From Tetmemena sp. SeJ-2015 (Eukaryota > Ciliophora > Spirotrichea > Sporadotrichida > Oxytrichidae): a DNA stretch of 64,000 nucleotides. The stretch covers positions 1 through 64,000 of the forward strand of contig JAJKFJ010022614.1 of the NCBI GenBank assembly GCA_027382625.1. Direction: 5' to 3'. A program made the translations under genes and the position numbers. This document shows positions 149-62,137 of the stretch, one piece after another; within the stretch, counting starts at the first letter, position 1, and each line of letters opens with the position of its first letter. The notes beneath the pieces are model-generated. The model worked only from the letters and a program-made list of their open reading frames with translations. It ran no database searches and was not told where the DNA came from.

Positions 149-530
149 TATAGCTGAGAATTTAATAAAAAAGAGAATTAAATAATTGATTTATTAAATT
201 TAAAATCCTTGGCAGTTAAAGTGTGAGCTATTGAGATTAATTTATCACCATTCGAATAAGCATTAAATTCTATGCAACTTTCTTGATTGCAAATGCTTCG
301 TTTGAGGTATGTGGAAAGAGTTATCCCTTGCTAAAGTTTAAGAGCTTCGATAATTTCTTCATTCAGAATATGCAACATCAATACTTCATTTCAGAGTACT
401 CCCTCAGTAAAGGCTGTAGAACAAACTATTCATATAATTTAAGGAGCTATCGAATAAGCCCCATATTGAGGTAGCTACCTCACAATTAAATGCCCAAAAA
501 TTTACAAGACTTCATTTATTATTTTAACTA
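149..530 (+). mobile_element. Family A element, diverged copy (a1)
   Basis: Begins with TATAGCTGAGAATTT, the same end as the better copies at 27895 and 61730, and ends loosely near 530 in a segment resembling the other family end. The middle is diverged, but a stretch around 300-345 (GTGGAAAGAGTTATC) is shared with the minus strand of the copy at 17523, so these two form a subfamily. A perfect 16-bp palindrome, TGAGGTAGCTACCTCA, lies inside at 467-482. A 63-codon standard-code frame here (283-474) is probably a relic of the element frame. Right boundary uncertain. Confidence 0.55.
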
Positions 531-765: not shown

Positions 766-2205
766 TACTTGGGCTGCTGTCCGCCAGACATCCAAAAATT
801 AATTAGTCACCAGAAGATTATGATGTGCCGCCTTCTAAAATTTTGACAACAAGATTCTATCCTATGTTTGGAAGAAATCTATTTCCATATACTCTATTTC
901 CGTTAGCAGCATTCATAGCCAAAAGCATCATTTTATTTCCTCCTGACACCTCTATTCCGCCTACATATACTAAACCATATTTTTAATAAATTCCTTATTA
1001 ATTTATAAATTAAAATCACGAACAATTACTTTTTGATCAAATAAATTTGTAAGTTTATGTTTGAAGTAGGATCATAGTATAATGTTCTTGGAATTGAATC
1101 ATAGCTATTCTGTCTTCTCCAATTTATTAAATATTATTAGCATCATATCTATGATTTATGCTTTTTTTAAATTTACGTTTGAACTAGTCACAGAATAAGA
1201 GGCTAAATTAAAGCTACAAGTTAAAATAGTAGGAATTTTAATTAAAATAAGTGATTGATTAAATTAATAAATGGAGAGTTGCAACTTCGTGTCAGGTGAA
1301 ATCAGAGATTTACCCCTGATCTGCAGTTTGTTCGATTGCTTATCAATAATTAATATGAGTTTCATCTTTAATCATCTTCTTAGCACCTCTCTTCATCGAG
1401 ATATAATTCACGCACTCCTCGTCATCCTCGTTATCGTCATCTTCATCTGAACTAGTGTCGCTTATAATTCTGAAATGAGCACTCCCACACAAAAGTTGCA
1501 AGGATGAAAAGTTCTTAGAATTTAATGATGAATCGAATGGATAATTATTATTTAAATTGGAGACACTTCAACTGCTACTCATTTATTCCATTTTAATTTA
1601 ATTTCTTATTTAATTCTCTTTTTTATTAAATTCTTAGCTATAATGAATTTGGTTTAATTATTTTAGAGTATGGAAGAGATGCCATCCGCAAACTCCGAGT
1701 ATAGGTTGCCCTGAGTTATCTATAACCATAGCGTGGAGGTAAGTAATATCAGATAGTCCAGCATATATTTAGAAGGCCTTAACGACAGCCCCTCCGCTTG
1801 AAGTCACTCGAAGGATTTTATATTAACTTGCTGTAGTCACCCAAAAAAAGTTTTCATCAGTTCAATCGAAAAGTACTTAAACAAAGCTTGAGAAAGGGCT
1901 AAACTTAAAACAATAAATAATTCCAAGATATCTACAAACAATAATTTAGTTGAGTAGTAAGCCAGCCAGTCTAGTTGCTCTGTTAAATAATTGTAAAAGC
2001 CCAGGATAGGTTTGTTAGTTGTTGAAGAATCCTTGTAGCCTTGACCTGCAAAAACAATCCAATACATGATAAATTAGAGAATGATAATTTATTCTCTAAT
2101 TGGGAATGTTTTTGGTAGTTTTGGAGACATCGAAAGAAACAAGATTCACATTTGAGGTTACTCCATTTCCTATGAAAAATGGGTAGTGGTTTCCGCATAA
2201 ATTAG
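766..2205 (-). CDS. Beta-propeller-like protein gene, interrupted (MDS pieces)
   Basis: Read with TAA/TAG as Gln. From high to low coordinates: about 2205-2070 gives a Gly/Asn-rich strand pattern (GNHYPFFIGNGV), 2067-1835 continues after a frame change, 1830-1643 gives VTSSGGAVVKAF and DNSGQPILGVCGW, then family A element a2 (1225-1642) intervenes, and coding resumes with GEDRIAMIQF (about 1120) and VGGIEVSGGNKMML to IFGCLADSSP (965-770). The repeated short beta-strand phrases with Gly-rich turns resemble WD, kelch or PQQ-type propellers, but no exact family is recognised. One frame change falls in an A run at 1842-1848 and could be a sequence error or a tiny IES. The 3' end and start codon are not resolved. 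Coding here is inferred from composition, not from a known homologue. Confidence 0.5.
1225..1642 (-). mobile_element. Family A element (a2) inside a gene
   Basis: 418 bp. The left end AATAGTAGGAATTTTAATT and the right end (read on minus) TATAGCTAAGAATTT match the two ends of other family members and the form TAYAGYNR. On the minus strand it keeps the family reading frame: SAHFRIISDTSSDEDD, an acidic run, CVNYIS, then KMIKDETHINY and TGA. It lies between two coding segments of the propeller-like gene, where an internal eliminated sequence would be expected. This is the clearest copy for arguing that the family behaves as IES in this germline. Confidence 0.8.
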
Positions 2206-3641: not shown

Positions 3642-4625
3642 TTTGTACTCGAGGAAGGAACTGAAAATGGCTTTGATTCTTATCCATTATAGGATGAATA
3701 CGAATGCAGAATCGGAGGTAAGAGATATTTGAGATAAATTGAATAGTAGACTGTGAGTGAAGACCTGATGTTCAGAAGGTTAACGCCTAGATGAGTCAAT
3801 TTTTACTCCTAAGTTCGAAACCCACTGGTAAAACCTTTTTTGAATTTTTTTCTGACTTATATATTTAACAGCAACAGCAATAGCAATAGTAACAGTAGCA
3901 ATAGTAAAAATATTTGAAGACATAAATAAGACGATGATGAGGAAGAGGAAGATGAGGAATTTTAATTAGCGGAAGAATAGTTTGAAAATCGGAAAAGTTT
4001 GAAAATAAATAAGGAATGTTTACAAAAAGTGAAATTCAAAGCTGATGTAGTTAGTCTCGAAAGTACGCTATTAAAAATCAAGGCAGTTATAAATTTAGAG
4101 ATGTCTTTATTAATTAAACCATCAGATCTTTTATACATCTCTTTTTAAAAATCTCTCTAATCCATTCATATTCTACCTATAATAATTCATAAATTTACAC
4201 AAAGAAAATAGAGCATTGATGAAGCCTTCAGATGTTTTTCTACCGTTTGGATCTAAATTGACTTTCAAGGTTGTATTTGAAGATAGATTGCCATAGGCGT
4301 AAGCCTGGCTTGGATTATATTCATTATTCTTTTCTGTAATTAAGAAGCTAGAAGTATTCTTGACTGAGTGAGTATTTTAATTGAGTATGTTATTAATCGC
4401 ATTTCTGGACTAGTTGATACTTGTGAACTAACCATGAGATTAAAATGTTTAGCAAAAACAATAAGAAGTAAAGTTTAATTATTAGATGAATCAAACGACT
4501 TGCCTAATATCTTTCTACTCAAGTTTACTCCATTAGCTTTAGAGTATCTACCATTGGTGAGAGAGTCCTCTGTGCTTTTTCTGAGTGTGAATAGCTAATA
4601 TTTTCTCAACTTATTTATGCAAAAT
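3642..4625 (+). CDS. Gene with conserved intron, Asn/Ser tract, acidic helix and two candidate IESs
   Basis: Reads ENGFDSYPLQDEYECRIGG, then an intron candidate of about 45 bp (GTAAAACC to TTTAACAG, about 3828-3872), an Asn/Ser tract, an acidic run DDDEEEEDEE (about 3930-3957) and a charged helix LAEEQFENRKSLK. The frame then breaks at TCAGAT (4122-4127) and is restored at the second TCAGAT (4228-4233), implying a 106-bp IES; a second break is cured by removing 17 bp between GAGT repeats (4366-4382), giving VFLTEYVINRISGLVDTCEL. The rest (LTMRLKCLAKTIRSK, ALEYLPLVRESSVLF) is Leu-rich. An in-frame TGA lies just before the acidic run, so either the copy is damaged or another segment is removed there. 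A diverged relative lies at 51600-51900. Function unknown; the 3' end is not defined. Confidence 0.55.
4122..4227 (+). other. Candidate IES, pointer TCAGAT, 106 bp
   Basis: Two TCAGAT copies (4122-4127, 4228-4233) both fall on the same codon phase in flanking coding sequence, while the AT-rich interval shifts the frame by one. Joining at the pointer gives a continuous frame (LLIKPSD then VFLPFGSKL). This is the usual MDS-IES signature of hypotrich germline genes. Confidence 0.6.
4366..4382 (+). other. Candidate 17-bp IES, pointer GAGT
   Basis: GAGT at 4366-4369 and 4383-4386 flank 17 bp that contain an in-frame TGA. Removing 17 bp joins FLT and EYVINRISG in one frame. A very small IES is the simplest reading, though a chance repeat of four bases cannot be excluded. 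Confidence 0.45.
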
Positions 4626-8639: not shown

Positions 8640-11600
8640 GCTTCCTAGGATAAATTTCATAATTCATATATTTATTTTCAGAATTCATTGATTAAAATAT
8701 TAATTTCTTTCTTAAAAATGAATGCTTCAAATTTAGTCTAGAAATAAAAGGTTAGATAATATTAAGTCCAATCACTTTATAAAGTTAACTTAATACTCAT
8801 TTCAAGAAATCTTTGGAATCTTTTTTGATATAATTAATTTTGATAAATCATTTTTTCAAAGTAGTAATTTTTGTCCATTTACTTCTCATCTGCATTTCAT
8901 GTCTTTCGTCACTGAGTTCAATCTGAGGAGGTGCAAATTTTGTCTTGCTAAAATTTAAATTTTTCATAAATTAAAATGAAGAAAAAATAAGATATTTTTC
9001 TCCTTAATTGTCCTATTAAGATAAAACACTGATTATATTTAGTCGATACTTCGAAGAAAATTAAACTTTATATGTTTAGTTATGTTTTTAAATGGATATT
9101 TTGTAATAAATGAATTCACACTTCTAATACAATTGATATTAACATTCCTTCTGCAGCTGTTATTAAATTAAATGGCCCTACATATAAATTGAAAGTCTTA
9201 CAAATCATTGAGATCAAAATAAAGTTTACTATATTTATTATCAGAATGAACAAATATCTCTCTTCTGGAAAGTTTAGTTCACTCAACTTTGCATTATAAA
9301 CTACTAAAAAGAGGTAGGGATAAATAATATTTTTGCTCAAACTGATTCTGTGATTAGCTCAGCTGCAAATGTCTTTAGATTCCAGAGAAAAAAAAAATCT
9401 CATCTTAACTATCTCACGAGGATAAAATATCGATCTTTGGTTAAAACAGAATTTTAAAGAGAAAAACCTTTAAAGGATTATTTTGCAAATAAATTTCTTT
9501 TTCATTATGTTTAATAAGGAAAACTATTTTAATACTCATTAAGCACAATTTTTTTTTATTTTAAGCAAATACTTGAAAGAAATCAATAATATCAAAGTAA
9601 TTTTAAAGAATTAATTATCATAAAATTTTCATTAATTTTCAAACATGGATATACAACCCCTCTCAATTTCTATAAACTTAAAAGCTGCTAATAATTAATA
9701 CAGAATGAGTAATTATTTTCCAAAAATTAATCAAAAAATGAAGTAATATTATTAGTATGATTAATGCTTATTTTTTTAACTTTAGATATTAAAAATAATT
9801 TTAAATAACACTTTTTAAAGTTTATCTTCTTGTTTGCTCGGATTAGAGATGAGAATTTATAGGTAACAAGATTCAAATAAATAATTAATTTTCTTATAGA
9901 ATGAATCAGTGACAGCTAATATATCTAGAATACTTTAATCCTTCGATTTAGCAAAAACTATTTTGCATTACTAGCATTTTTTGTGGTAGAACTCTACTCT
10001 TATTTAAAAGCGAAATAAACTCAGATCATAACGAAGATAAAGATTGTAAGTGAGGATGAGCTGCGTCTCTCTTTGCTGAGAGGATTAAAGAAAAAATTCT
10101 TTGTAATTTTTTTATTAGGTATTTAAAGGGCTATCCTGGAAGTTTGAGCCATTTTAACTTCCACGAAGTTACAACTCATCTTTATAGGTTCAAGCAAATC
10201 TTTGATTGTAATTTAATTCTTAACTATATTTTACTCTTGGTATACATCCTCAAAATATATTTCTTTTTCTATAGGATTATTTCCAGAGGACAAGGAATTT
10301 TAATAAAGTTCGGCATTTCTTATTTGAGCTTTAAGACCTCCAAGTAAATTACACATATTTTAATTAATTATATCGATTTATAGCATTTAAAACCTTGGAG
10401 GAAAAAGAGAACTTTAATAAAATATTCTCTATTTAAAAATAAGCAGTCGATAAACTTCAATCTTTTTAGTGAGAATTATTCCAATATTTCTTCTGTAAAC
10501 TATAATTCAAAGCCATCATTCATTAGCCTTACACATTTGTATTAATTTATAAAATAGATTCTTAAATTTAGAGGAGATAAATTAAAAATAATTTTCTTCT
10601 GAATCTGCTGACTTTAAATTTTTACAAAAGTTTGTTAAACAATAGTGAGCAAACATTGAAATTAAAAAAAATCTAGAAAATAAATATTCTCTCCATATAT
10701 CTAAATCCTGAATGGGCACTATTCCTTGTTACAGATATTAAGAGCTTAAGCTATTTATAACCTTTAAAAAGAAGTAACAGAAAAGGTTACTCGCACATTT
10801 AGCTATGAATTCAAATTACGCGCCTTCATAAACATTTATCCTCTTTGTCTAAAAATACTCATTATCAAAGAATCTTAAATACTATTTTTTTAAAAAAATG
10901 TATGAAAAAAAACCAGCTCTGCTAAGAAATAGATTGTCTTATGTTAACTTCTTTATTATAATCCAACTTTTTAGCATTTACTATTATTGTTTTTAAACAT
11001 TAATTTCTATAAAATTAAGACTCTTAAAATTTAAGAATTTTAATTTACTAAATTGTTGTTGCTTTCAGTGAGGTTTTTAAATTTGCCTTCCCATGATAAA
11101 GATTAAGCTTTGTACTCCCTACATTAATCTTCCAACTTAGATAATTCCTAATCTTTCTTAGATAGCTTAATATAATTTTTAAATAAATATGCTCACTTAT
11201 TTTAATAGGAAGTGATGACTTAATTTTTTATTAAAATATATATATTTTATAAGAATTTTTTTAAAAAAATAGCTTCTCTTCTAGCTACTCAATTATAATT
11301 TTAATTATTTAAGTTAAAAATCTATTTAGACTATATAGAGATATATTATTTTATAAAAAAGGAGATGGAGAAAATTAATTAAAATTGTTTATGGAAATCT
11401 TAATAAATATAGATTTATATGCATACAAATCATTCATAATTATGAATGCATGCTATAAAATATAACCAATCATTTCTTTAAACCAAGAAAAGTAAAATTT
11501 ATTTAACTTTCAAAAAAACTACACCTAAATTGCTAATTTGAAATTAAAAATTATTCCTACAGATAAAGACAATAAATATAAATATAGCCCCAAAAAATAT

Positions 11601-14160: not shown

Positions 14161-14996
14161 ATCGAATGACTTAATCAGAATGAGCGGCATATAGACTAAT
14201 AATAATAAAGACATCTTCAAAAATAAAAAGAGAACTATTTATTCTACTAAAATAATTTGCAACAAAATTGTCATAAAAAAGAATAAAGATAGTCAAAAAC
14301 AGTTTAAAACTTTATTCTTTAAATCTAAATTAAGATAAAATAAAACGGATATATTTTAATTATCAAGTTAAATGACTCATATCTCGAGGTATAGCAAAGG
14401 AAGAGCTTAAGGATAATTTAAAGAGTAAGAATAAAATAAAATTTATTTTAATAACAATACCCCCTTTGGCTTTAAAAGCTCAAATTCACGCTGTAAGTGA
14501 TTATATTAATTGAATCTAAATTTTTTAAAAATTTTTAAAAAAATATAATTTAATTTAAATTGATTTGATTCTGGCTTTAGATACTAGTGAAAAGGAAGTG
14601 ATTATGCAGTGTAAAGACATATTGCTTAAAGAATTTCATTTGTATTGGTCGAAAATTAAAGTGATTATTATAGGAAAGATCTGAGTTTTTTCATTAAAAA
14701 AGAACAGAAATAAATAAATCAATGCGCTTTTCCGTAAAATTTAAATTAAGGACTAAAAGAGAATTTAATTTTTCCTTAAAAATAATAAGCACCCTTTTAA
14801 AAAATAAATGCATATCTTTTTATAAGAACAAAATATTTTCAATAGATTTTCTTTATTTCAAAGACATTGAGAATTTTGAAGGAAAACTAAATAAATTATT
14901 CAATTTTCAATACATTAAAAAGAATTGTTGAATATTAAAATCATTTATAATTGCTAAGTTCTCAAATAATTTTATCCAAATTAATCTTTTTAAATT

Positions 14997-15275
14997 TTGC
15001 TTTTCCTGCTTTAAAATTAAATCATTCTCACAAAACTTACCTATGGGGTGACTTATGACTATTTATCTTAAGAACTTGCGCTGTTTGATCTTATTGCGGA
15101 AGCGCCTTAAGAAGATAAGTGGCCGTTCCCTTTTGACTAATTAATCTTAAACAATTTTTAATTATTATAACTCTAAATTTTAATTGCTTTTTTGTTCTTC
15201 TTGTTGTATAAGTCCCTCTGGAGAAAAGACTTAGATTTTGGGCTGAATTTTACTGGCTTCTATGACTCTTGAATT
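14997..15275 (+). CDS. Duplicated coding segment, copy 1 (3' end of a gene)
   Basis: Plus strand: LTYGVTYDYLSQELALFDL, AEAPQEDKWPFPFDQ (about 15025-15145), an AT-rich gap, then LLYKSLWRKDLDFGLNFTG FYDS and TGA at about 15270. The copy at 32645-32930 has the same two blocks, the same gap position and the same stop, with only a few changes, some silent, which supports a real protein. The gap is probably an intron or IES. Homology continues past the stop to about 15530. Confidence 0.55.
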
Positions 15276-15530
15276 CTCAAAGAATCTTAAAAGGGAAAAA
15301 TTCCCCTAAAAATTTTAAATTTTTGGCTTTTTTAAATTTTAAATCAATATTTTTAAAATTTTAACTTTTTTTTAACTGGATAAATTTTTTGTTTTTGAAT
15401 CATTCTCAAAAAAGGGATTAAATTTTTTTTAAACCCATTAAAAAAAAAAGAATATTGTTGTTTCAACCAGTAAAAATATTTTATTTTTAAAACGCAGGGT
15501 TTCTACCCTTTTATAACCGAATCCTCTTGG
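15276..15530. repeat. Non-coding tail of duplicated block copy 1, poor consensus
   Basis: Corresponds to 32931-33120 but homopolymers are lengthened (for example T8, A10) and about 80 bp of A/T-rich DNA is inserted. The pattern suggests low-coverage noisy sequence rather than biological divergence. Confidence 0.5.
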
Positions 15531-17522: not shown

Positions 17523-17936
17523 TATAGTTAAAATTTAAATGAAAATCTTAATTAAGTTAAAATAAATAAACGAATAATTGTAAATTATTGACCATTAAAT
17601 TGTTAAATAGGTCCTACAATATTTGGGCTTGTTCGATAGCTTATTTTATTTGAATATGAGTATGCTCAACTAAGATTATGATAGGAGGTGCCTATGAAGA
17701 GAATTTTGATGTCACAAACTCCGATCCAAGAAATTAACCAAGTTCAAAAACTTATAACCGAGATAACTCTTTCCACAGAACTCCTGTGAATAAGTTTCAA
17801 GGATGAAATTTGCTTAGAATCTAATGCTTAATAGAAATGCCAATAATTTCAGCCCACAATCTCTCACCACGGATTTTAAATTTATTAATTTATTTATTAA
17901 TTTAATTCTTTTTTTTTTATTAAATTCTCATCTATA
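17523..17936 (-). mobile_element. Family A element (a3), diverged
   Basis: 414 bp from TATAGTTAAAATTTAAATG to CTCATCTATA, the second being the complement of TATAGATGAG. Internal landmarks GTTCGATAGCTTAT and AAGGATGAAA are retained but the small acidic frame is lost. Shares a subfamily sequence with a1. Confidence 0.65.
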
Positions 17937-27894: not shown

Positions 27895-28297
27895 TATAGC
27901 TGAGAATTTAATAAAAAAGAGAATTAAATTATATATTAAAAATGAGAGATAGTTGAAGTGTGTCCAAATTGAATAATGATTAGACCATTCGATTCAGCAT
28001 AAAATTCTAAGAACTTTTTATCTTTGTAACTTTTGTGTGGGAGTGCTCAGTCAAGAGTTATAAGCAACACAAGTTTTAATTAAGACGAAGATGAGGATGA
28101 TGAAAAATGCGTGAGTCATATCTCACCTCTGAGAGTTGCTGTGAAGATGATTAAAGAAGAAACTCATATTAATTTTTGATAAGCATTCGAACAAGCTACA
28201 GATCAATGATGAATCAGTGATTTCAACTGACACTAAGTTTCAATTCTCCATTTATTATTTTAACCAATCACCGATTTTAATTAAAATTCTTACTATA
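27895..28297 (+). mobile_element. Family A element (a4)
   Basis: 403 bp, TATAGCTGAGAATTT at the left and TTCTTACTATA at the right. The plus strand carries the family frame: SAQSRVISNTSFNQDEDED, then KCVSHISPLRVAVKMIKEE, THINF and TGA. Best plus-strand copy for defining the ends. Confidence 0.8.
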
Positions 28298-28299
28298 TT

Positions 28300-29335
28300 A
28301 AAAGAGGGTTCGCGTTAATTTAAAGTCTCATTGATATTTCTCAAAGCACTTTGATCAGATAATTGAATTAAATATTAAAAAAAGTTTAATATCTATATTC
28401 TCAGTCGATAATTGATATGCTTGAGTGCTAAAATCCGTTTCTGTCTGGTTATATTGATATTATAATTTTTTAATATAAATAATCTGGTTATTTATTGTTA
28501 AGTTTATTTTTAAATATAAATCTAATGAAAAATAGAAATCATCAAAAATGTCTTTGATTATTTAATTTTTTTATTTAACAATTTTGATAAGGAATCTACT
28601 AAGAGACCATTAGCTTTAAGAATAAGATAATTGATTGGTTGAATGCTGTACTATCAATATATAGCTGAAAAATAGACATTCTTAAAATGCAAGTATTTAA
28701 TAAAAAATTTAAATAAAAATGCTTTTATAAAACATAATTGAATTTAAATTTGTCATAAAAAAATAATATTTCTTGAATATGAAATTATTTTTAAAATAAT
28801 CATTTTATGCTTACTTATATCCCTATAATTATTTAGATTTAAATTATTATTAGTCTTTAAATTTAAAATTAGATACTATTTTAATCTCACGTAAATCACG
28901 AATATCAAGCATAGCTAAACTTTGACACTCCCTCATAAATTAAATAATAACTTTACACTCAATTTTCAACATGCTAATGTTCTATGCTTTTTTTGGAATT
29001 GAAAACATTTAAAGACTAGGATAAGTTGCGATTATTGCTTTTTTAGTAAGGGCATGATTTAAACTCTTTAGGAAGAAAAAACTTACATTTTAAGCAAATA
29101 AAAGGTCTAGAGGATTACACAATAATAGTATATTAAGATCTATGATTTGATAATTTAACAAATGAGGAGCTGCAAATTATTAACAGTTGATATTGCAAAT
29201 CTAACCACCGATCCATCTCCAGCTCTTAGTCCAATAAATTTAAATATAATGTTTTGAAAAATTAAATACCTTTATAGCACCACTCTGATACTAGACAAGA
29301 TACGCACACTCTTCTTAAAATCGAATTTATCCGGA
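28300..29335. other. AT-rich region, nothing recognised
   Basis: No convincing frame or repeat. Low-complexity A/T sequence dominates. Confidence 0.5.
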
Positions 29336-32644: not shown

Positions 32645-32930
32645 TTTTTGCTTTTCATGCTCTCAAATTAAATCATTCTCGCAAAACTTACCTATGGGGT
32701 GACTTATGACTATTTATCTTAAGAATTCGCGCTGTTTGATCTTATTGCGGAAGCGCCTTAAGAAGACAAGTGGTCGTTATCTTTTGACTAATTAAATTTT
32801 TCTTCATTTTTTTATGAATAAATTATTATAACTCTAAATTTTAATTGCTTTTTTTGTTCTTCTTGCTATATAAGTCCCTCTGGAGAAAAAACTTAGATTT
32901 TGGGCTGAATTATATTGGCTTTTATGACTC
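32645..32930 (+). CDS. Duplicated coding segment, copy 2 (3' end of a gene)
   Basis: Near-identical to 14997-15275: LAKLTYGVTYDYLSQEFAL, LIAEAPQEDKWSLSFDQ, a gap, then LLYKSLWRKNLDFGLNYIG FYDS and TGA. Conserved stop and gap position. Here the sequence around it is clean, so this is the better copy to work from. Minus-strand frames downstream (MITALEQQNGILRGFCYTK at about 33135-33070) may be a convergent gene or a shadow. Confidence 0.55.
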
Positions 32931-33479
32931 TTGAATTCTCAAAGAATCTTAAGGAAAAATCTCTATAAAATTAATTCAATTTAGGTCTTTTATAATTATA
33001 AATCAATACTTTTAATTTATAGCTTTTAATGACTGGATAAATTTTTGTAAAAAATTTTAAATCGCAGGTTACTATCTTTGTATAACAGAATCCTCTTAGA
33101 ATTCCATTCTGCTGTTCTAAAGCAGTAATCATAAAAAGTAAATATGAATTTAATTTATTCACAATTAAAATAACTCTCGAAAAATATTTTACTATTATTT
33201 CAAAATAAATTATTATTTTTATTTTTAGATTAAACAAAAACCTCTACTTAAAGAAATAAAACTTTTGCTATGCAATCGTTAATAATAATTTTAATACTAC
33301 TAAAATAATTATAATATAACTTTTTAATGTCTCTGGAAATATTTCTTTTTAATAATGAACTAGACACAGAAAGCAATTGAGAGATAGAAATTATGAATGA
33401 ATTTAGCATCAAAGCAGGTCAACTTATTGAAATGCTATTATTATAATAACTTGTAGCATTGTTTATTTGAATTATTCTC

Positions 33480-34009: not shown

Positions 34010-35457
34010 GAACTTGAGTTCGAGCAAGAGATCTCTGTGCTTTAAAATGTCAAGCCAAGAGTTGAGAAGTCGGTGGGCGTTTAAACTATCGCACCTGATG
34101 CTCCTCTTGTTGCTGCTCAAGAGATCAATGAGGAGAAGAAACTTTTTGAATGCGAGTAATGTCAACGACAGTTCGAATATCCTCAGAGCCTCAAGCGGCA
34201 CATCAAGGAAGTCCACTCAGCAGACAAACCTAAGATCTATATGAAGCATTAGAAAGTGGACGGTCGCTATCCTTGCTCAACTTGTGAGCAGACATTCTCT
34301 CACTCTGCTTTCCTCAGAAACACATGGAGAAGAAGCACATGGCTGAGTTCGTAATTGAGGATAAAGAAACTTTAAAGATGTGCCAGCTAAGAGGCAAGCA
34401 CGATACCTTGACAAGGTTCAACTAAAGAGGAAGCAAGAGGAGAAGAAGAGGAAGATTAGTTCATGAATCAGAAGCCTTAGTGTATGGTGTCAGTAAAGTT
34501 TCAGCTAGCTCAAAGCAAGACTCCATGCTTGAGAGTTGTAACTTTGGAGGAGTGTGTTCAAAATTACCTCCACCTTGCTGATGCGAAGCGAAGAGACACC
34601 ATCATACAAAAGAGAATGCTTACAAGATCTTCCATTACGAATACCTTGTAAAGAAGGAAAAGAGAGGTCTTGAGTTCGCGAACGAACTGACAGTGTTGAG
34701 AGAAGCGAGGGACAAAAACTTGAAGTACGTTCTTCATCTTGCTGGTGTTCTTATTGATCATGATTACATCGCCATTCGCCTTCCTAAATGGGAGATCACA
34801 CTAAGAGAATTTCTCAGCACGAGGCGCAACAAGTACTAGCTTACTGCTATTCTCACTGACCTCGTTAGAGGAGTGATGGAGTTGCATGAGTTGGGATTCG
34901 TGCACAGAGATCTCAAGCCAGAGAACATCATGATAAACTTTGAACCAGTCAGAGCAACTGTCATAGACTTCAACAGAGTTGTAAGAAGAGAAAACATTGA
35001 GAAGCATCGGTGCAAGGAACGCAGGCTACTTCCCATAGAGACAGACTTGGCTAAAACGGTTCAGTCCCAGTGGGACATTTGGTCTATAGTTGCAATCATA
35101 CTTGAATGCATATGAAACCAGGGGAATACTACTAGTGTGAAAGTGAAGATGATGCAATATAATTTCGCAACAAGACATTGTAAGATAACAAGGTATCAGA
35201 ACCTTTGAAAAAATTAGTAAACAAAAATAATAATCAAAGCACCCTATGAAAACCTAACACTCAGTTATCTGAGATAAGGAAGCACTTAAGGTATAAAATT
35301 CAGAGAATATGACCACGTCAAGGGCACCTTCCTAGAAGACTTTAATTGCCTGTTTAGGGTTAAAAATTTTGCATGATTATAAGTATTAATAAAGAAAAAT
35401 TTAAATTTTACACAACTTTTTCACTTTCTTATCATATTATGGGGTTTTGGGGTTTTG
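34010..35457 (+). mobile_element. TBE transposon remnant (right end)
   Basis: Carries the zinc-finger/kinase gene of TBE elements and ends in GGGGTTTTGGGGTTTTG (35441-35457), the telomere-like terminus of Oxytricha TBEs, directly followed by ATT (35458-35460), the expected ANT target. The other two TBE genes (transposase and the small 22-kDa frame) and the left end are absent, so the element is 5'-truncated; the left limit is approximate. Confidence 0.85.
34120..35115 (+). pseudogene. TBE zinc-finger/protein-kinase gene, frameshifted
   Basis: Two C2H2 fingers: FECEQCQRQFEYPQSLKRH (Cys-x2-Cys, His-x4-His follows) and YPCSTCEQTFSHSAFLR, where a base is lost before the His pair. A basic coiled stretch (RQARYLDKVQLKRKQEEKK) follows in another frame. 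From 34619 a kinase domain runs uncorrupted to TGA 35113-35115: YEYLVKKEKRGLEFANELT, catalytic loop HRDLKPENIMI (His at 34903), and VIDFNRVV where the usual DFG is DFN (34966-34974), then WDIWSIVAIILECI. The domain is short after DFN, lacking the C-terminal lobe end. Several frameshifts make this a pseudogene. This domain pairing is typical of the TBE 57-kDa protein. Confidence 0.85.
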
Positions 35458-35460
35458 ATT
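35441..35460 (+). repeat. TBE telomeric terminus plus ATT target
   Basis: G4T4G4T4G at 35441-35457, then ATT. It is the only G4T4 repeat of this length seen in the window. Confidence 0.9.
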
Positions 35461-45132: not shown

Positions 45133-45547
45133 TATAGTAGGAATTTTAATTAAATTGATGATTGGTTAAAATAATAAATGAAGAGTTGCAACTTCGTGTC
45201 AGTTGAAAAAACAGATTCACCCTCTGATCTGTATCTTGTTCGATAGCTTATCCAAAATTAATATGAGTTTCTTCTTTCATCATCTTCATAGCACCTCTTA
45301 ACAGCGAGATATGACTCACGCATTCTTCTTCATCCTCATCTCATCTTCATTAAAACTTGTGTCGCTTATAACTCTTGACTGAGAGCTCCCACACAAAAGT
45401 TGCAAGGATAAAAAGTTCTTAGAATTTTATGTTGAATCGAATGGTCTAATTATAATTTAAATTGGAGACACTTCAACTGTCACCCATTTGTTCCATTTTA
45501 AATTAATATCTAATTTAATTCTCTTTTTTATTAAATTCTCAGCTATA
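45133..45547 (-). mobile_element. Family A element (a5)
   Basis: 415 bp, TATAGTAGGAATTTTAATT at the left, complement of TATAGCTGAGAATTT at the right. Minus-strand frame: SSQSRVISDTSFNEDE and KKLILILDK-type remnants. Where a2 and a4 have TGA after THIN[FY], this copy has GGA and stays open (AIEQDTDQRVNLFFQLTRS), though an upstream shift breaks the acidic run. Confidence 0.8.
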
Positions 45548-47468: not shown

Positions 47469-47898
47469 ATGGAATTCATTTCTTTCTATCGTTCTAAAAT
47501 ATTTAAGATAGAGGCTATTGTTTCAGATCTAAATTGGGACTGCAATTCTAGAGATTTTGAGTATTTTGCAAATCATAGTGCGTGGAATTCACTTATACAT
47601 AATATAGAACCTTAAAAGCAACTTTCGCATAATTTCTCTATAATAAATAACTCTTTTCTTACATTAAATGCCAATTATGATAGCTTTATTAAGAAAATTT
47701 TTATTCTATTTTTAAGAATATATTTGGTATTTAAATTGAAAAGTGAGTTTAAATATTTCTTAAATTAAAATCGAACAATCAGAGGTAGTTAAAATATGCT
47801 AGACAAGGAATAGGAGAAATGCTCACATCAGCTCCCACTACTGAGATGTTCTGTTGAGATTATTAAAGAAGTAATTCATATTTGAATTTGATAATAGA
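47469..47898 (+). CDS. Unknown protein running into a family A remnant
   Basis: ATG 47469: MEFISFYRSKIFKIEAIVS, DLNWDCNSRDFEYFANHSA, WNSLIHNIEPQKQLSHNFS, NSFLTLNANYDSFIKKIFI LFLRIYLVF. The open frame then continues into EKCSHQLPLLRCSVEIIKE VIHI TGA (47896-47898), which is the family A frame (CVSHISLLRGAMKMIKEETHI). Either the element frame extends 5' into this gene or a chance in-frame fusion exists. The N-terminal half is strongly protein-like. Confidence 0.45.
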
Positions 47899-48005
47899 AC
47901 AAGTTATAGATCAGGAGTGAATATTTCGTTTCAACTGCCATCATGATTTTAAAGTCGCCCACTTATTATTTCAACCGATTTTAATTAAAGTATTTACTAC
48001 TGTAA
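47740..48005 (+). mobile_element. Family A element (a6), partial
   Basis: Retains GAGATTATTAAAGAAGTAATTCATA, CAAGTTATAGATCAGG, AACCGATTTTAATTAAA and a right end ACTGTAAT instead of CTATA. The left part and acidic run are missing. Confidence 0.6.
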
Positions 48006-50379: not shown

Positions 50380-50794
50380 TATAAGTGGGATTTTAAATTT
50401 AAAAATTTAGTGTTTGGGTTAAAAAATAATAAATGGAGAGTTGCAACTTTGTATCAGTTGAAATCGTAGATTCACCCCCTGATCTGCAGTTTTTTCGATA
50501 GAGAATAAAAAATTAATATGGGTTTCTTCTTTAATCAACTCCACAGCACTTCTTAGCAGCGAGATATGAATCACGCACTTATCTTCATTTTCTTCATAAA
50601 AACTTGTGCCGCTTATTATTCTTGACTGAGTGCTCACACTCAAAAGTTGCAAGGATAAAAAGTTCTTAGAATTTCATGCTGAATCGAATGGTGTAACAAT
50701 TATTAAAATTGGAGACACTTCAACAGTCACTCATTTATTCCATTTTAATTTAATATCTAATTTAATTATCTTTTTTATTAAATTCTCAGCTATA
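50380..50794 (-). mobile_element. Family A element (a7)
   Basis: 415 bp. Minus-strand frame is the longest intact version: ATG at 50652, LLSVSTQSRIISGTSFYEE, NEDKCVIHISLLRSAVELI, KEETHINFLFSIEKTADQG, VNLRFQLIQSCNSPF. There is no stop after THIN, so the frame probably extended through the element in the ancestor. Confidence 0.8.
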
Positions 50795-51590: not shown

Positions 51591-51905
51591 TATAAATAAG
51601 AGCATTTTTTATTCCAAGGTTAAAAACCTACAGGTAAAACTCTTTTTTTTAATTTTTTTCTGACATATATTTCTAGTAGCAGTAGCAATATCAACAGCAA
51701 TAGCAACAGTAGTAATAGTAACAATAATACCAGAAATAAAATGGATGAAGATGGAGAAATTTAATTAGTGGAAGAATAGTTTGAAAAGAGGAAAAGTTGG
51801 AAAATAAATTAGAGATGCTTCAAAAAGTGAAAATCAATGCTATAAGTTAAAGGGTAAAAAAATACGCAATTAAAAAATCAAGGCAGTTATTAAAACTAGA
51901 GAAAG
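51590..51905 (+). pseudogene. Relative of the 3642-4625 gene (truncated)
   Basis: Shares the intron (GTAAAACTC to ATTTCTAG, 43 bp, about 51635-51677), the Asn/Ser tract, then MDEDGEIQLVEEQFEKRKS WKINQRCFKK. After TGA the similarity continues as DNA (CAAGGCAGTTAT) and stops. Nothing corresponds to the VFLPFGSKL part. The conserved intron shows that the first exon boundary is real in both. Confidence 0.55.
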
Positions 51906-54449: not shown

Positions 54450-54854
54450 TATAATTGAGAATTAAGATAAAATCGGTGCCTGGTTAAAATAATAAATAGG
54501 AGTTTGCAAGAAAAACAAAAAATTTCTTATAAAAGAAATGGCCAAACCTTATCTGTAAGTTGCTCGATATCAATTTAATGTGAGTTATTCTTTAATTTTC
54601 TTTGCTCTACTCAGAATCAATTTATGATACGCGCATTAATTTTAAAAGCTAAATGTGAAACTTGACAAACTTGGGTAGCTTATAACTCCCAACTGAGCTC
54701 TCCCAGACATAATTTTTAGGATAAAAACTCTTTAAATTCTATGCTTAAATATAATTATCTAATAATTACTTAAATTTGAGATAATTTAACTGCCAACAAT
54801 TTAATCAATTATAGTTTTATATTAATTATATTTTTCTTTATATTCTCAGTTATA
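54450..54854 (-). mobile_element. Family A element (a8), diverged
   Basis: TATAATTGAGAATTAAG at the left and the complement of TATAACTGAGAATA at the right, about 405 bp. GGTTAAAATAATAAATAGG and TTGCTCGATA are retained; the acidic frame is destroyed. Confidence 0.65.
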
Positions 54855-55547: not shown

Positions 55548-56101
55548 ATGGAATGTTTATTAAATTATAATCGAAAGCAGAAATGTAATAATTTAATGCA
55601 ATTAATTTCGATTGTGGACAAATCAACACTGACGAGATTTATGCGGAGTTGTGCACGAGAGGAGTCTGAACATAGCTTCATAGATCATTGTGGATCAGAA
55701 GGTAGAGAGTATCTCGCCATCAATAGTCACAATGAAAAACATCAGCACGTCTCATTTCCTGAGCAAACGAAATTTGTCTAAGATGAAACTAGTTATGGAT
55801 AGCAGCGAAGTCTATCCAATAAGGAGAAAATTTAGGGCAGCTGAATTCCGATACCAAGGCTAAAAATAATTGTCTTTTAGAATGAAGACCCCTTCAGTTT
55901 CTCAAGGGCGAGAAACTAGAGTCCTTCAAGAAAAGATTTTTGAAGGTTATTCGAGAGGAATGGAGGGGCTTCTCACTCACTTTATTGGCTATCTTCTTTG
56001 AGAATTAATTTACAAGGAACAAATTCTCGATTCGTAGAGAGGACGACACGACAAAGGATTTCACTGATGCTTGTGCTCTATATGCTATCCTGCAGGATTG
56101 A
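55548..56101 (+). pseudogene. Protein-coding remnant, possibly from a mobile element
   Basis: ATG 55548: MECLLNYNRKQKCNNLMQL, STLTRFMRSCAREESEHSF, REYLAINSHNEKHQHVSFP, EQTKFVQDETSYGQQRSLS and TGA near 55842. After shifts, LKGEKLESFKKRFLKVIRE, EWRGFSLTLLAIFFENQFT, RNKFSIRREDDTTKDFTDA CALYAILQD and TGA 56099-56101. Higher G+C than flanks. No family recognised; shifts suggest decay. Confidence 0.45.
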
Positions 56102-56504
56102 AAAATCTATGAAAGAGTGTATTAAATTTATCTAAGATGCACTATAGTTTGATTGATTTTTCTTTCTAATATAAAATCATTCTTCAATGACCTAAGTAGT
56201 TTGAAACACTAGATTTTTCCTATAATTAAAATCTAATATGCAAAAGCTATATATGTCAAAATCTAATAGAAGCATAGTAAAGTTCTGTAAGTATAAATGG
56301 ATTTGGACATGAGAGTTGGATTAGTTATCAGAATGACGCCTTATTTTAGATTAATAATCCAATAAACTAATCACCATTTTTTAATTCACACAAAATCTGC
56401 GGTAATGCAGCTTTTTCTCATTTACTAATAGCTTATATATAGAAACATTGAGGGGGGTAATCATAAGTTTGAATTAATCATTAGCAACTTTAATAAACTT
56501 AAGG

Positions 56505-58735
56505 GACGCCAGGGGTTGTGCATGAAGGCATTGGGGACATCCCTGAATATCTTGGACCGGGATGACCCGCTTTGGGCTCAGAGCGCAACCCGCTACACCC
56601 GAATCAAACCCCCCCCCCTACCTCGAGAGCTATGTGGCCCGATGGATTCACAAAGGGAAAGGTACCCCGGCCGAACTCAGGACCCGAATACACACTCCGG
56701 GATCAGCACTTTTGGGCGATCTTGCTGCGCTAGGGACCTCAGCCACGACAGCACATACTCAGACTACACTCAGGTAGCCAAGGTCAGGGGAATCAAGCCG
56801 ACACGGTGGCCGTGAGCCTCCACGGGGGCCCGCAACGATTTCATCTACGATCGGGGAGGCCAAAAAAGGGGCCAGAGAGCAAACCCCCACGCGATCGAGC
56901 AGCGCATCACCAGGGCCTAGCATCTCAGCGATCGGCCCACATGAGCCTAAAGGGAGCGCACCCATTTCTATCACGAGGATTTGGAGCCCCACTTGCCTCC
57001 CCAGCCACGCTGGCCAAGCTCTTCCTGCAACAGGTGTACTACCATCCAGCGCGTACAGGTACATCCGCAAGGCCCAAAGGGGGAGCGCGAGCTCCGGGAG
57101 CAGCAGCAATCTACTCGATGGCTATACGATATCACGCTGGCCCAGGTGTGTTCATCGACGAGTCCACCTTCCACGGGTTGAGATAATCCCCTGTTTGGTA
57201 GTAGACCTTTTATTTTTGCCCATTTGAGGATTGCTTCCGATTTGCCGAGGGAGTCGGGAAGCGGTTACCTTTCCTCATTTTCAATCTCGGGTAGATGTCC
57301 TTGCTCTTGATTTCTCGAGCCCCTCTCTCTCCCTCTCTCTCCATCCAATTAGAATACTGACCAATCGCAGCTCATCAACCCAGCTGGTCCTTTAATCTAG
57401 AAGACCATTTGCTCCACGACGGGGGGCCATTGAATTTCATCTGGACGATCGTGAGTACCATCTTTGATTGCTTGCTCCACTCCCCACCTCCTTGGCATTT
57501 TATCAAGCTGTTTTTCTTGAAACTGGGGGTACCCCAAGTGATTAAAAATAGCGGGTGATGGCCCTCCGCTCCAGCCGTTCATTTTGGGCACTTGCTATCC
57601 TTCTCTGCGGCTGCGATCAACTGCCGGAGCAGTCCGGCATGTTTTGCATCTCTGAGATTGAACTTCTCTGCGCATGGGGTTGACCTTGGTTATCATCCAT
57701 TTTTCCTAGGTGATTAGGGCTGTTTTCCCACCACTCCTGCTGTGCCTCAGCTCTATCTCAAGTTGTTGCCCGGATGACGATGAAGGAGGTCACCGGGTCT
57801 TTTAGAAATAGAAGCTCCACAGCCGTACCCTTCATTATTCGTACTCATTGGTGAGTTCTAGTAACCTTTGTCATGTCCTGTACTGCTTGGGGTCCACTAA
57901 GTCATCGGGGCTCATCCTTGACATAGCTTGTCTCTCAGTTTGGGCCCTTTGCTTCTTTTTTGGCAATGGGGGCTTTCAGCTCTTGCTACAGCTTTCCGCC
58001 TCTTGATTGATGGGGATGGGGAAGCATTTTTGAGTGAATGCGATTTGTTTATTTATCCATTCTGCATCGACGACCTTTAGTACTCCGGCGCCAAGGTTTG
58101 AATATTCAGATCTCGATTGAAAATCCACTTGAAAGCCTTGCCTCATCCCTGCGTAAGCCACAACGCACGGGTCCCCCGGGCCCTTTACCCTTACACCGCG
58201 TAATGATCATCATCTCTGGGGCAGAGCTCGCTGCCTTCATCTTTTTCAAAATGCCCAAGAGTCGGGCCCCTTTGCCGAGCTTGGGATGAAGCGTAGGGGG
58301 GGCCGGGGAACTAAAGGGTACGCTGGTATGCAAGTCGCCGTCGGGGAGGACCTGGAGGTAAGGGGCTGGAGGGTGTGCTACACAATGGGAACCTTGGGCA
58401 CGATCGCCCGACGAGCAGTTAGGGAGTCGCCTCACCTGGCTGCATGTGAAAGGCAGGGGGCCCGGGAACCCTCCGCTTTGGCAGATGGGCGAAGCGTTAA
58501 ACCAGGGGGCTTGGCTGTGGGAGGTTTGGGCTAAACATATCCAATGCAGCGGGGGCTCGCTGAGGTCTTGCATCCATTCCTAATCATTCTATAGGCGAAG
58601 GACTACGGTTGATTCCTCTATGGATTGGGGGGTTCAGAATGTCAAACAGTGACTGACCTTAGGGGGCTTTAGCGCGAGCTCGGGGGGGCCTATGTCTGGC
58701 GCTCGGGGTGGGCCCTCGTGGGTGTGATTAATAAT
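56505..58735. other. G+C-rich block of foreign composition
   Basis: About 2.2 kb at roughly 55% G+C with sharp edges against AT-rich DNA. Plus strand near 56600-57230 has a long TGA-free frame rich in Ser/Pro/Arg, but two other frames are also open there. Minus strand has convincing pieces: MRQGFQVDFQSRSEYSNLG AGVLKVVDAEWINK (58146-58045), SPDDLVDPKQYRT, NLRDAKHAGLLRQLIAAAE KDSKCPK (about 57660-57590) and MNGWSGGPSPAIFNHLGYP QFQEKQL (57591 down). Frequent frame changes indicate decay or sequence error. TAG/TAA use as Gln is not required here. Could be a decayed retroelement, horizontally acquired DNA, or a contaminating chimera. Confidence 0.5.
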
Positions 58736-61729: not shown

Positions 61730-62137
61730 AATAGAGCTGAGAATTAATTTGAAATATAATTAAATTAATATGGAATAGATTAGGGGAAGATTAAATGACG
61801 CCGATATAGTAAATATTTCACCATTCAATTAAGAAAAGTAAAATTCTATAAACTTAATATCATAGATAATTTTATGTGAGAGAGTTCATTTTACAAAAAT
61901 TGTGACAAATTTAAAAGAATAAAGGCATATAAGAACAGGGTGAATAAGCGCATCATTTCTCGCTACAGAGAAAGCTCATAGGATAATTAAAGAGGAAATG
62001 TTTATAATGTTTAATAGGCTGTCGCAAGCTGCAGATCAGGGAGTTTTTGAGCAATTTTAACTGTTGTTCTCAAGAAGCGAGGATGCGTAACAACACATAG
62101 TGATATCATGCTTGATTTTGCATTACTGGCTATAAAC
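61730..62137 (+). mobile_element. Family A element (a9), diverged
   Basis: ATAGAGCTGAGAATTAATTTG at the left, GGCTATAA at the right, about 408 bp. Internal CTCATAGGATAATTAAAGAGGA and AGCTGCAGATCAGGGAG match the family middle. Confidence 0.6.

Follow-up and report, generated by a model that had tools for sequence, protein, structure and literature searches.

A dispersed repeat with a 417-bp consensus, present in 11 copies in the 64-kb window (the whole stretch of DNA analysed, positions 1–64000 of contig C3250), is very probably a TA-targeting, non-autonomous MITE of the Tc1/mariner type that has multiplied in a hypotrich-like germline and is presumably eliminated from the soma. The part worth following is an insertion of this element in probable coding sequence that is missing from an allele-like contig.

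The assembly from which the window was taken (146,216,379 bp in 5,213 contigs) looks like a germline genome, because a telomeric 24-mer, with 21 occurrences in the whole assembly, is confined to three contigs, the allele-like contig C4889 not among them. The reversed control of this 24-mer (28 matches) is uninformative, as it is this very repeat read in a different phase. In genome-wide matches to the DDE_3 transposase domain, in-frame TAA and TAG are frequent and TGA is rare; this pattern and the GGGGTTTT repeat at 35441 are both signs of a hypotrich-like ciliate.

The 417-bp repeat family

The consensus has the ends TATAGTAGG... and TATAGCTGAG...; the element is short (<500 bp) and lacks convincing coding capacity, the tests of its small frame being non-significant. 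A profile built from 29 copies was used to search the window and gave the 11 copies listed in Table 1. All nine places at which the earlier note had recognised a repeat match the profile with E 6e-18 or better; four of the nine are among the copies from which the profile was built and so match by construction, and BLAST with the copy at 1225 alone also recovers these four. With that query, BLAST in the window gave full-length matches at 45134, 27893 and 50387 and, at other places, weaker matches. Two copies, both marked in Table 1, were additional to the nine. Four copies are full-length (1225, 27895, 45134 and 50383), with a mutual identity of 83–89%, and others are older or partial: the copies at 149, 9846, 17524 and 54456 are 69–72% identical to the consensus, and at 47805 and 29132 the profile match spans 194 and 185 nt only.

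Table 1. Copies of the 417-bp family in the window and features of the locus at 1225
Feature	Position	Strand	Details and evidence
Focal full-length copy, 418 bp	1225..1642	+	AATAGTAGGAATTTT at the left, where the first T of TATAG is missing; ...TTCTTAGCTATA at the right
Putative IES, 681 bp, containing the focal copy	978..1658	.	Removal at direct repeat TATTTT would give open frame ...GWHLFHTLKYGLVYVGGIEV...
Candidate pointer TATTTT, left copy	978..983	.	Longest of 11 in-frame-joining repeats
Candidate pointer TATTTT, right copy	1659..1664	.	Repeat search at the 1225 locus
Upstream coding segment of interrupted gene (...DNSGQPILGVCGWHLFHTLK)	1658..1843	-	Neither Pfam nor PDB gave a match
Downstream coding segment of the same gene (YGLVYVGGIEVSGGNK...)	776..985	-	Translation, genome search
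Older copy, about 69% to consensus	149..528	-	Profile; right end TATAGCTG retained
Older copy, absent from the earlier list	9846..10226	-	Profile, E 1.1e-19
Copy of older subfamily	17524..17936	+	Profile
Full-length copy, TAYAGYNR at both ends	27895..28296	-	Profile, end check
Partial old copy, absent from the earlier list	29132..29316	+	Profile, E 8e-12
Full-length copy, TAYAGYNR at both ends	45134..45547	+	Profile, end check
Partial old copy	47805..47998	-	Profile
Full-length copy, left end TATAAGTG misses TAYAGYNR	50383..50794	+	Profile, end check
Older copy	54456..54853	+	Profile, consensus comparison
Older copy	61733..62063	-	Profile

Genome-wide, a first look gave 3,841 candidates; the 40 that were scored all match nearly end to end, at 87–100%. 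The profile search of 192.6 kb of contig C1943 found four copies. The genome contains 446 occurrences of one exact 33-base subterminal pattern (0 of the reversed control). Two of the seven full-length copies of the window and C1943 carry it, from which roughly 1,500 such copies can be estimated, if only roughly; the germline genome probably holds well over a thousand. Copies of an older subfamily (the type at 17524) gave 917 first-look candidates, and the 39 other copies scored are 78–83% alike.

An alignment was made of 33 copies (30 fetched loci and three window copies), of which 29 were used after L003, L014, L021 and L028 had been left out as duplicates recognised by common flanks. The 29 copies have sharp, constant ends, from TATAG to CTATA, in unrelated flanks. 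The aligned copies, for the most part top matches to the query, diverge from the consensus by a median of 5.5%, and the 1225 copy by 8.9%. At one locus (L024) a copy is nested within an older copy, and the length of this older host, compared by hand count with the copy at 149, fits a 2-bp TA duplication. Searches of the plasmid collection and of Rfam gave 0 matches, and in the open-licence literature we found no paper recognisable as describing the 417-bp family.

Ends and target site

Terminal inverted repeats are present, short and imperfect (TATAGTAGGAATTTTAAT / TATAGCTGAGAATTTAAT). The observation that the ends fit TAYAGYNR holds for the consensus and for 25 of 31 copies at both ends (26 at the left, 30 at the right), but not for the very copy on which attention had centred: the left end of the 1225 copy is AATAGTAG, and its left TA is missing. 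Other left-end misfits include the copy at 50383, several older copies and the copy at L029 in a WD40 gene, whose left end TATAATAG has kept the TA and not the motif. Across the whole window TAYAGYNR is not enriched (69 occurrences versus 103 expected from base composition). Around the TA the flanks show a preference for A-W before and W-T after. The ends are indeed unlike those of hypotrich TBEs, as had been noted, being of the TATAGYNR/TA kind with no telomere-repeat (TBE-type) ends.

Matches spanning the junction, as expected of empty sites, were sought at 29 loci; 25 were answered (L012, L013, L023 and L030 were not), with matches across the junction at 10 of the 25 and none at 15. The first round gave junction matches at 8 of 14 loci (40 of 45 candidates scored); in the second, of 14 loci, one was resolved, L005, with matches across the junction, and its high-copy flanks filled every scored place; and in the third, made on nine of these 14 loci and one new, 1 of 10, L020, had them (18 of 18 candidates scored). 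Base-by-base reading covered two of the 10 loci, L029 and L017. At both, the empty site has a single TA and the occupied site reads TA-element-TA, so that a 2-bp TA target-site duplication is seen at both fetched empty sites, and the nested L024 copy is consistent with it. Some of the junction matches, at 81–87%, may instead stem from other members of a host repeat. The five window copies tried, which are among the 15 loci, gave no countable junction match; for the copy at 50383, one 86% match extends just a few bases beyond the junction. High copy number, fixed ends, unrelated flanks and the exact TA at two empty sites bear out the view of the earlier note that this is a germline transposon-like family.

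The element at L005 (C3457:6688) lies within a repeat of high copy number. Of the 44 listed matches that run across its empty site, 41 extend over nearly the whole stretch at 89–94%, and four start 10 bases or less from a contig start.

The copy at 1225 as a probable passenger

The copy at 1225 had been described as separating two coding segments and as possibly being itself an IES (internal eliminated sequence). It does lie between two such segments (Table 1), but some 240 nt, with TGA in all three frames, separate it from the left one. Removal of the element from TA to TA would leave these TGAs in place, and the proposal that the element itself is the IES is not supported here. Repeats of at least four bases that would join the two segments in frame number 11 at this locus, and seven of the 11 leave no TGA between; the longest is TATTTT, at 978 and 1659, and the join at this repeat reads ...HTLKYGLVYVGG... 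Some repeats shorter than TATTTT also yield open joins. From these joins we infer that the 1225 copy is a passenger in a longer IES, 978–1658; the spacer between the coding segments may instead be a spliced intron. The name ‘propeller-like’ given to the gene found no confirmation, as no homologue was recognised by protein search (12 candidates, none at E 0.001), Pfam or PDB, and a search of the whole genome found only the gene itself.

A copy in a WD40 gene

On contig C1943 a copy at 101882–102297 (L029) splits a Val codon, and its removal from TA to TA would restore the reading frame, with the translation ...MDMMNTHKKR-V-MGLAADKTFGFVYSASEDGHFKV... after the join. The four best Pfam matches of the joined peptide are all WD40-type, and three of the four begin at residue 5 or 6, ahead of the element junction at residue 12/13. 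The WD40-type matches that cross the junction are below their curated cut-offs; the plain WD40 model is above its own cut-off, but its best stretch lies further on and not across the junction. With the 11 residues left of the junction added, the score rose from 15.9 to 25.5 bits for Prp19-WD40 and from 19.3 to 23.0 for WDR55, and two other scores hardly moved. Downstream, WD40 repeats and a tail read on partly in another frame, and introns or other spacers are therefore likely.

On contig C4889 the right flank of the C1943 copy is matched for 1403 nt at about 100% identity and the left for 1.06 kb at 93%; exactly two bases separate the two matches. This contig looks like the other allele of the locus, without the element. 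The insertion probably lies in the coding sequence of the WD40 gene, which may be broken for other reasons. A possible second coding-sequence insertion is at L020 (C3143:133784), where the copy sits by a glutamine-rich stretch that precedes an RRM segment and two places at 84% run across the junction.

The C1943 copy is thus a possible newborn IES. We put forward tentatively, with somewhat less than even confidence, that the family may now be founding new TA-bounded IESs in coding exons, the WD40 insertion being an IES at birth that would be removed precisely. If this is true, precise excision would follow from Tc1/mariner-type ends and a TA duplication. Established IESs in the hypotrich lineage have variable pointers. 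An element caught after insertion but before fixation should be a rare find, and here a single germline offers a copy in a longer putative IES, a copy in an older relative and an exon insertion missing from an allele-like contig. With these it can be tested whether a hypotrich removes a new TA insertion precisely from the outset, and whether the insertion keeps its TA or drifts to a longer pointer.

A proposed mechanism and a possible source of transposase

In the mechanism that we propose, transposase would be supplied in trans, most likely by one of the genome's many Tc1/mariner DDE_3 genes, and would act on the short imperfect TATAGYNR inverted ends; the element would then move, duplicating the TA target on insertion. 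At formation of the somatic nucleus, copies would be removed as passengers in a longer IES, as suggested for the 1225 copy, and those in coding sequence would be removed as TA-bounded IESs, at C1943:101882 (WD40) and perhaps at C3143:133784 (upstream of RRM). Macronuclear removal is a step that we infer because of ciliate biology.

For DDE_3 the genome gave 921 first-look candidates, of which 150 were scored; for DDE_1 (the pogo domain) there was one match among 13 candidates. A full-length relative with a transposase, which the earlier note had proposed to look for, did not emerge: in the sequence searched, no element combined a transposase with these ends. Profiles of the terminal ends, run over 355,697 bases, gave outside the known copies weak matches only, the best (E 0.95) beside a partial copy. 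The one 3-kb DDE_3 stretch that was read (L051) contains no such ends, and may stop short of the ends of its element; comparison of a transposase piece with local sequence gave nothing with matching ends. The L051 stretch (C3399:5000-8000) has 52% GC and carries, besides a DDE_3 transposase, another long ORF; it is perhaps a TBE-like element.

The small frame

Several copies had been said to share a small frame, possibly encoding a host-relevant peptide. In 27 of 29 copies the last 43 codons, with the motifs by which the frame was recognised, stay open and in register; this part of the description stood, but none of the 29 copies has an in-frame ATG before position 172 (minus strand). Followed from position 64, the frame is open and in register in 15 of 29 copies, contains TGA in 11 and is shifted in three. 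When substitutions were relocated at random, about two copies with TGA in the 43 codons were expected by chance, whereas 0 were observed (p 0.10 for copies taken one at a time, 0.35 with shared changes moved together); the longer stretch has more TGA than chance predicts, in 11 copies versus about five. The chance of an open frame of 98 codons at the composition of the element is 0.12.

The test for selection on the frame found an excess of synonymous changes in the longer frame, 52 of 186 versus 43.5 expected, but not a significant one (one-sided p 0.07); positions 172–294 minus the acidic run gave 17 synonymous changes of 58 versus 14.9 expected. The acidic run has changed in length several times by a multiple of three, as repeat slippage would lead one to expect of the TCN/GAN run. 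A frame on the opposite strand, with several TGAs in it, was examined as a candidate and rejected: 42 of 118 shared changes are synonymous versus 28.0 expected (z 3.1), and the excess over all changes falls from z 2.0 to 0.6 without the TCN/GAN trinucleotide run.

Alternative explanations

That every copy is an IES cut precisely from TA to TA, 1225–1642 in the ‘propeller-like’ gene included, would agree with the TA and TAYAGYNR ends, with the split WD40 codon on C1943 and its matching contig with one TA, and with the place of L020 in a probable N-terminal coding stretch upstream of the RRM segment. Yet the 1225 copy has no left TA and would leave TGA in three frames on such removal, and copies also lie inside an older copy and in a high-copy repeat; we consider this generalisation unlikely. 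It is still less probable that the copies were spread by segmental duplication or assembly artefacts and not by transposition: the common flanks of L002/L003, L012/L021, L013/L014 and L023/L028 do indicate alleles or duplicates, but 29 aligned copies with unrelated flanks and sharp ends remain after the exclusions and two empty sites are exact, and we give this explanation hardly any weight.

The two other alternatives concern what the element is. A small protein gene under selection, for a host-relevant or mobility peptide, could account for the open 43-codon motif stretch, for the one-sided synonymous excess and for the several acidic-run length changes that are multiples of three. We find it improbable, since the copies have no upstream in-frame ATG, the missing TGAs in the 43 codons are unsurprising by chance, the longer stretch has more than chance predicts, synonymous changes in 172–294 without the acidic run number 17 versus 14.9 expected, the strongest synonymous signal is on the opposite strand in a frame with several TGAs, and Pfam gave no match; a host-relevant peptide is thus not upheld. 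That the element is related to the hypotrich TBE transposons, or is one of them in shortened form, might be suspected from a telomere-like repeat near 35441 in the same window, which resembles a TBE end. TBEs are also Tc1/mariner elements, according to passages of PMC9797194. Against this kinship, which we judge very improbable, stand the TATAGYNR ends and TA duplication in place of C4A4, and the lack of TATAGYNR-type ends in the one DDE_3 stretch read. A TA-targeting, non-autonomous MITE thus remains our preferred reading.

Relation to known elements

Descent of IESs from TA-targeting transposons is an old idea. Tec elements of Euplotes have a TA target and a terminal motif like TAYAGYNR, with a transposase and a recombinase among their ORFs, and TBEs have telomere-repeat (C4A4) ends and a target site of their own. 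Tec elements carry three ORFs, as given in passages of PMC9797194. The translated copies of the 417-bp element have no long ORF of the Tec kind. In the same passages TBEs are Tc1/mariner elements, germline-limited, situated in IESs and with three ORFs (PMC9797194); judged by its ends and length, the 417-bp element has neither the C4A4 ends nor the three ORFs. The IBAF model is the subject of the passages of PMC8384191.

In its way of life the family is closest to the mobile IESs of Paramecium and the ‘MITIES’ of Blepharisma, which it resembles. As described in passages of PMC9942856, BogoMITE of Blepharisma stoltei is about 389 bp long, noncoding, of the Tc1/mariner superfamily and present in about 8,000 copies. 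Like the 417-bp family, it is noncoding, high-copy and sometimes nested in longer IESs, but its duplications are TAA/TTA, its 30-bp ends are C-rich and its autonomous partner, a Pogo element, is known (PMC9942856, in the same passages); the 417-bp family duplicates TA, its TATAGYNR ends are AT-rich, no partner was found for it and DDE_1 gave one match. The mobile IES family FAM_2183 of Paramecium is 233 bp long with 4,153 copies, and Paramecium mobile IESs are, in the passages of PMC8354472, likewise non-autonomous, with thousands of recent, nested and exon-inserted copies. In passages of PMC9942856 no autonomous partner is reported for these families. IES status in Paramecium comes from MIC and MAC data (PMC8354472), whereas that of the 417-bp family is putative and its host hypotrich-like. 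In Oxytricha trifallax, mobile IESs make up 60,330 of 191,263 IESs and are likewise IES-associated interspersed repeats in a hypotrich germline; the passages of PMC10901763 on them give bulk counts and describe no such 417-bp family.

Other features of the window

The repeat GGGGTTTT is present at 35441; positions 35418–35459 read GGGGTTTTGGGGTTTTGAT, with AT-rich sequence before it, and we take this telomere-like repeat to resemble a TBE-type telomere-repeat end. The segment 56001–58000 has 47.6% GC versus 28% for the window, and at 57109–57174 there is a weak 25-residue match to Tc1/mariner transposase (E 0.006). Ten window ORFs, three of them within 56001–58000, were compared with Pfam and none matched. 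Outside the window, the copy at L019 (C227:5321) adjoins a segment matching the guanylate-binding protein C-terminal domain (E 8.4e-07). The window also contains another pair of repeats, 90–93% alike, at 14995–15290 and 32646–32952, and a pair 83% alike at 3945–4027 and 51744–51826, which starts with GA-rich codons and would read as an acidic peptide.
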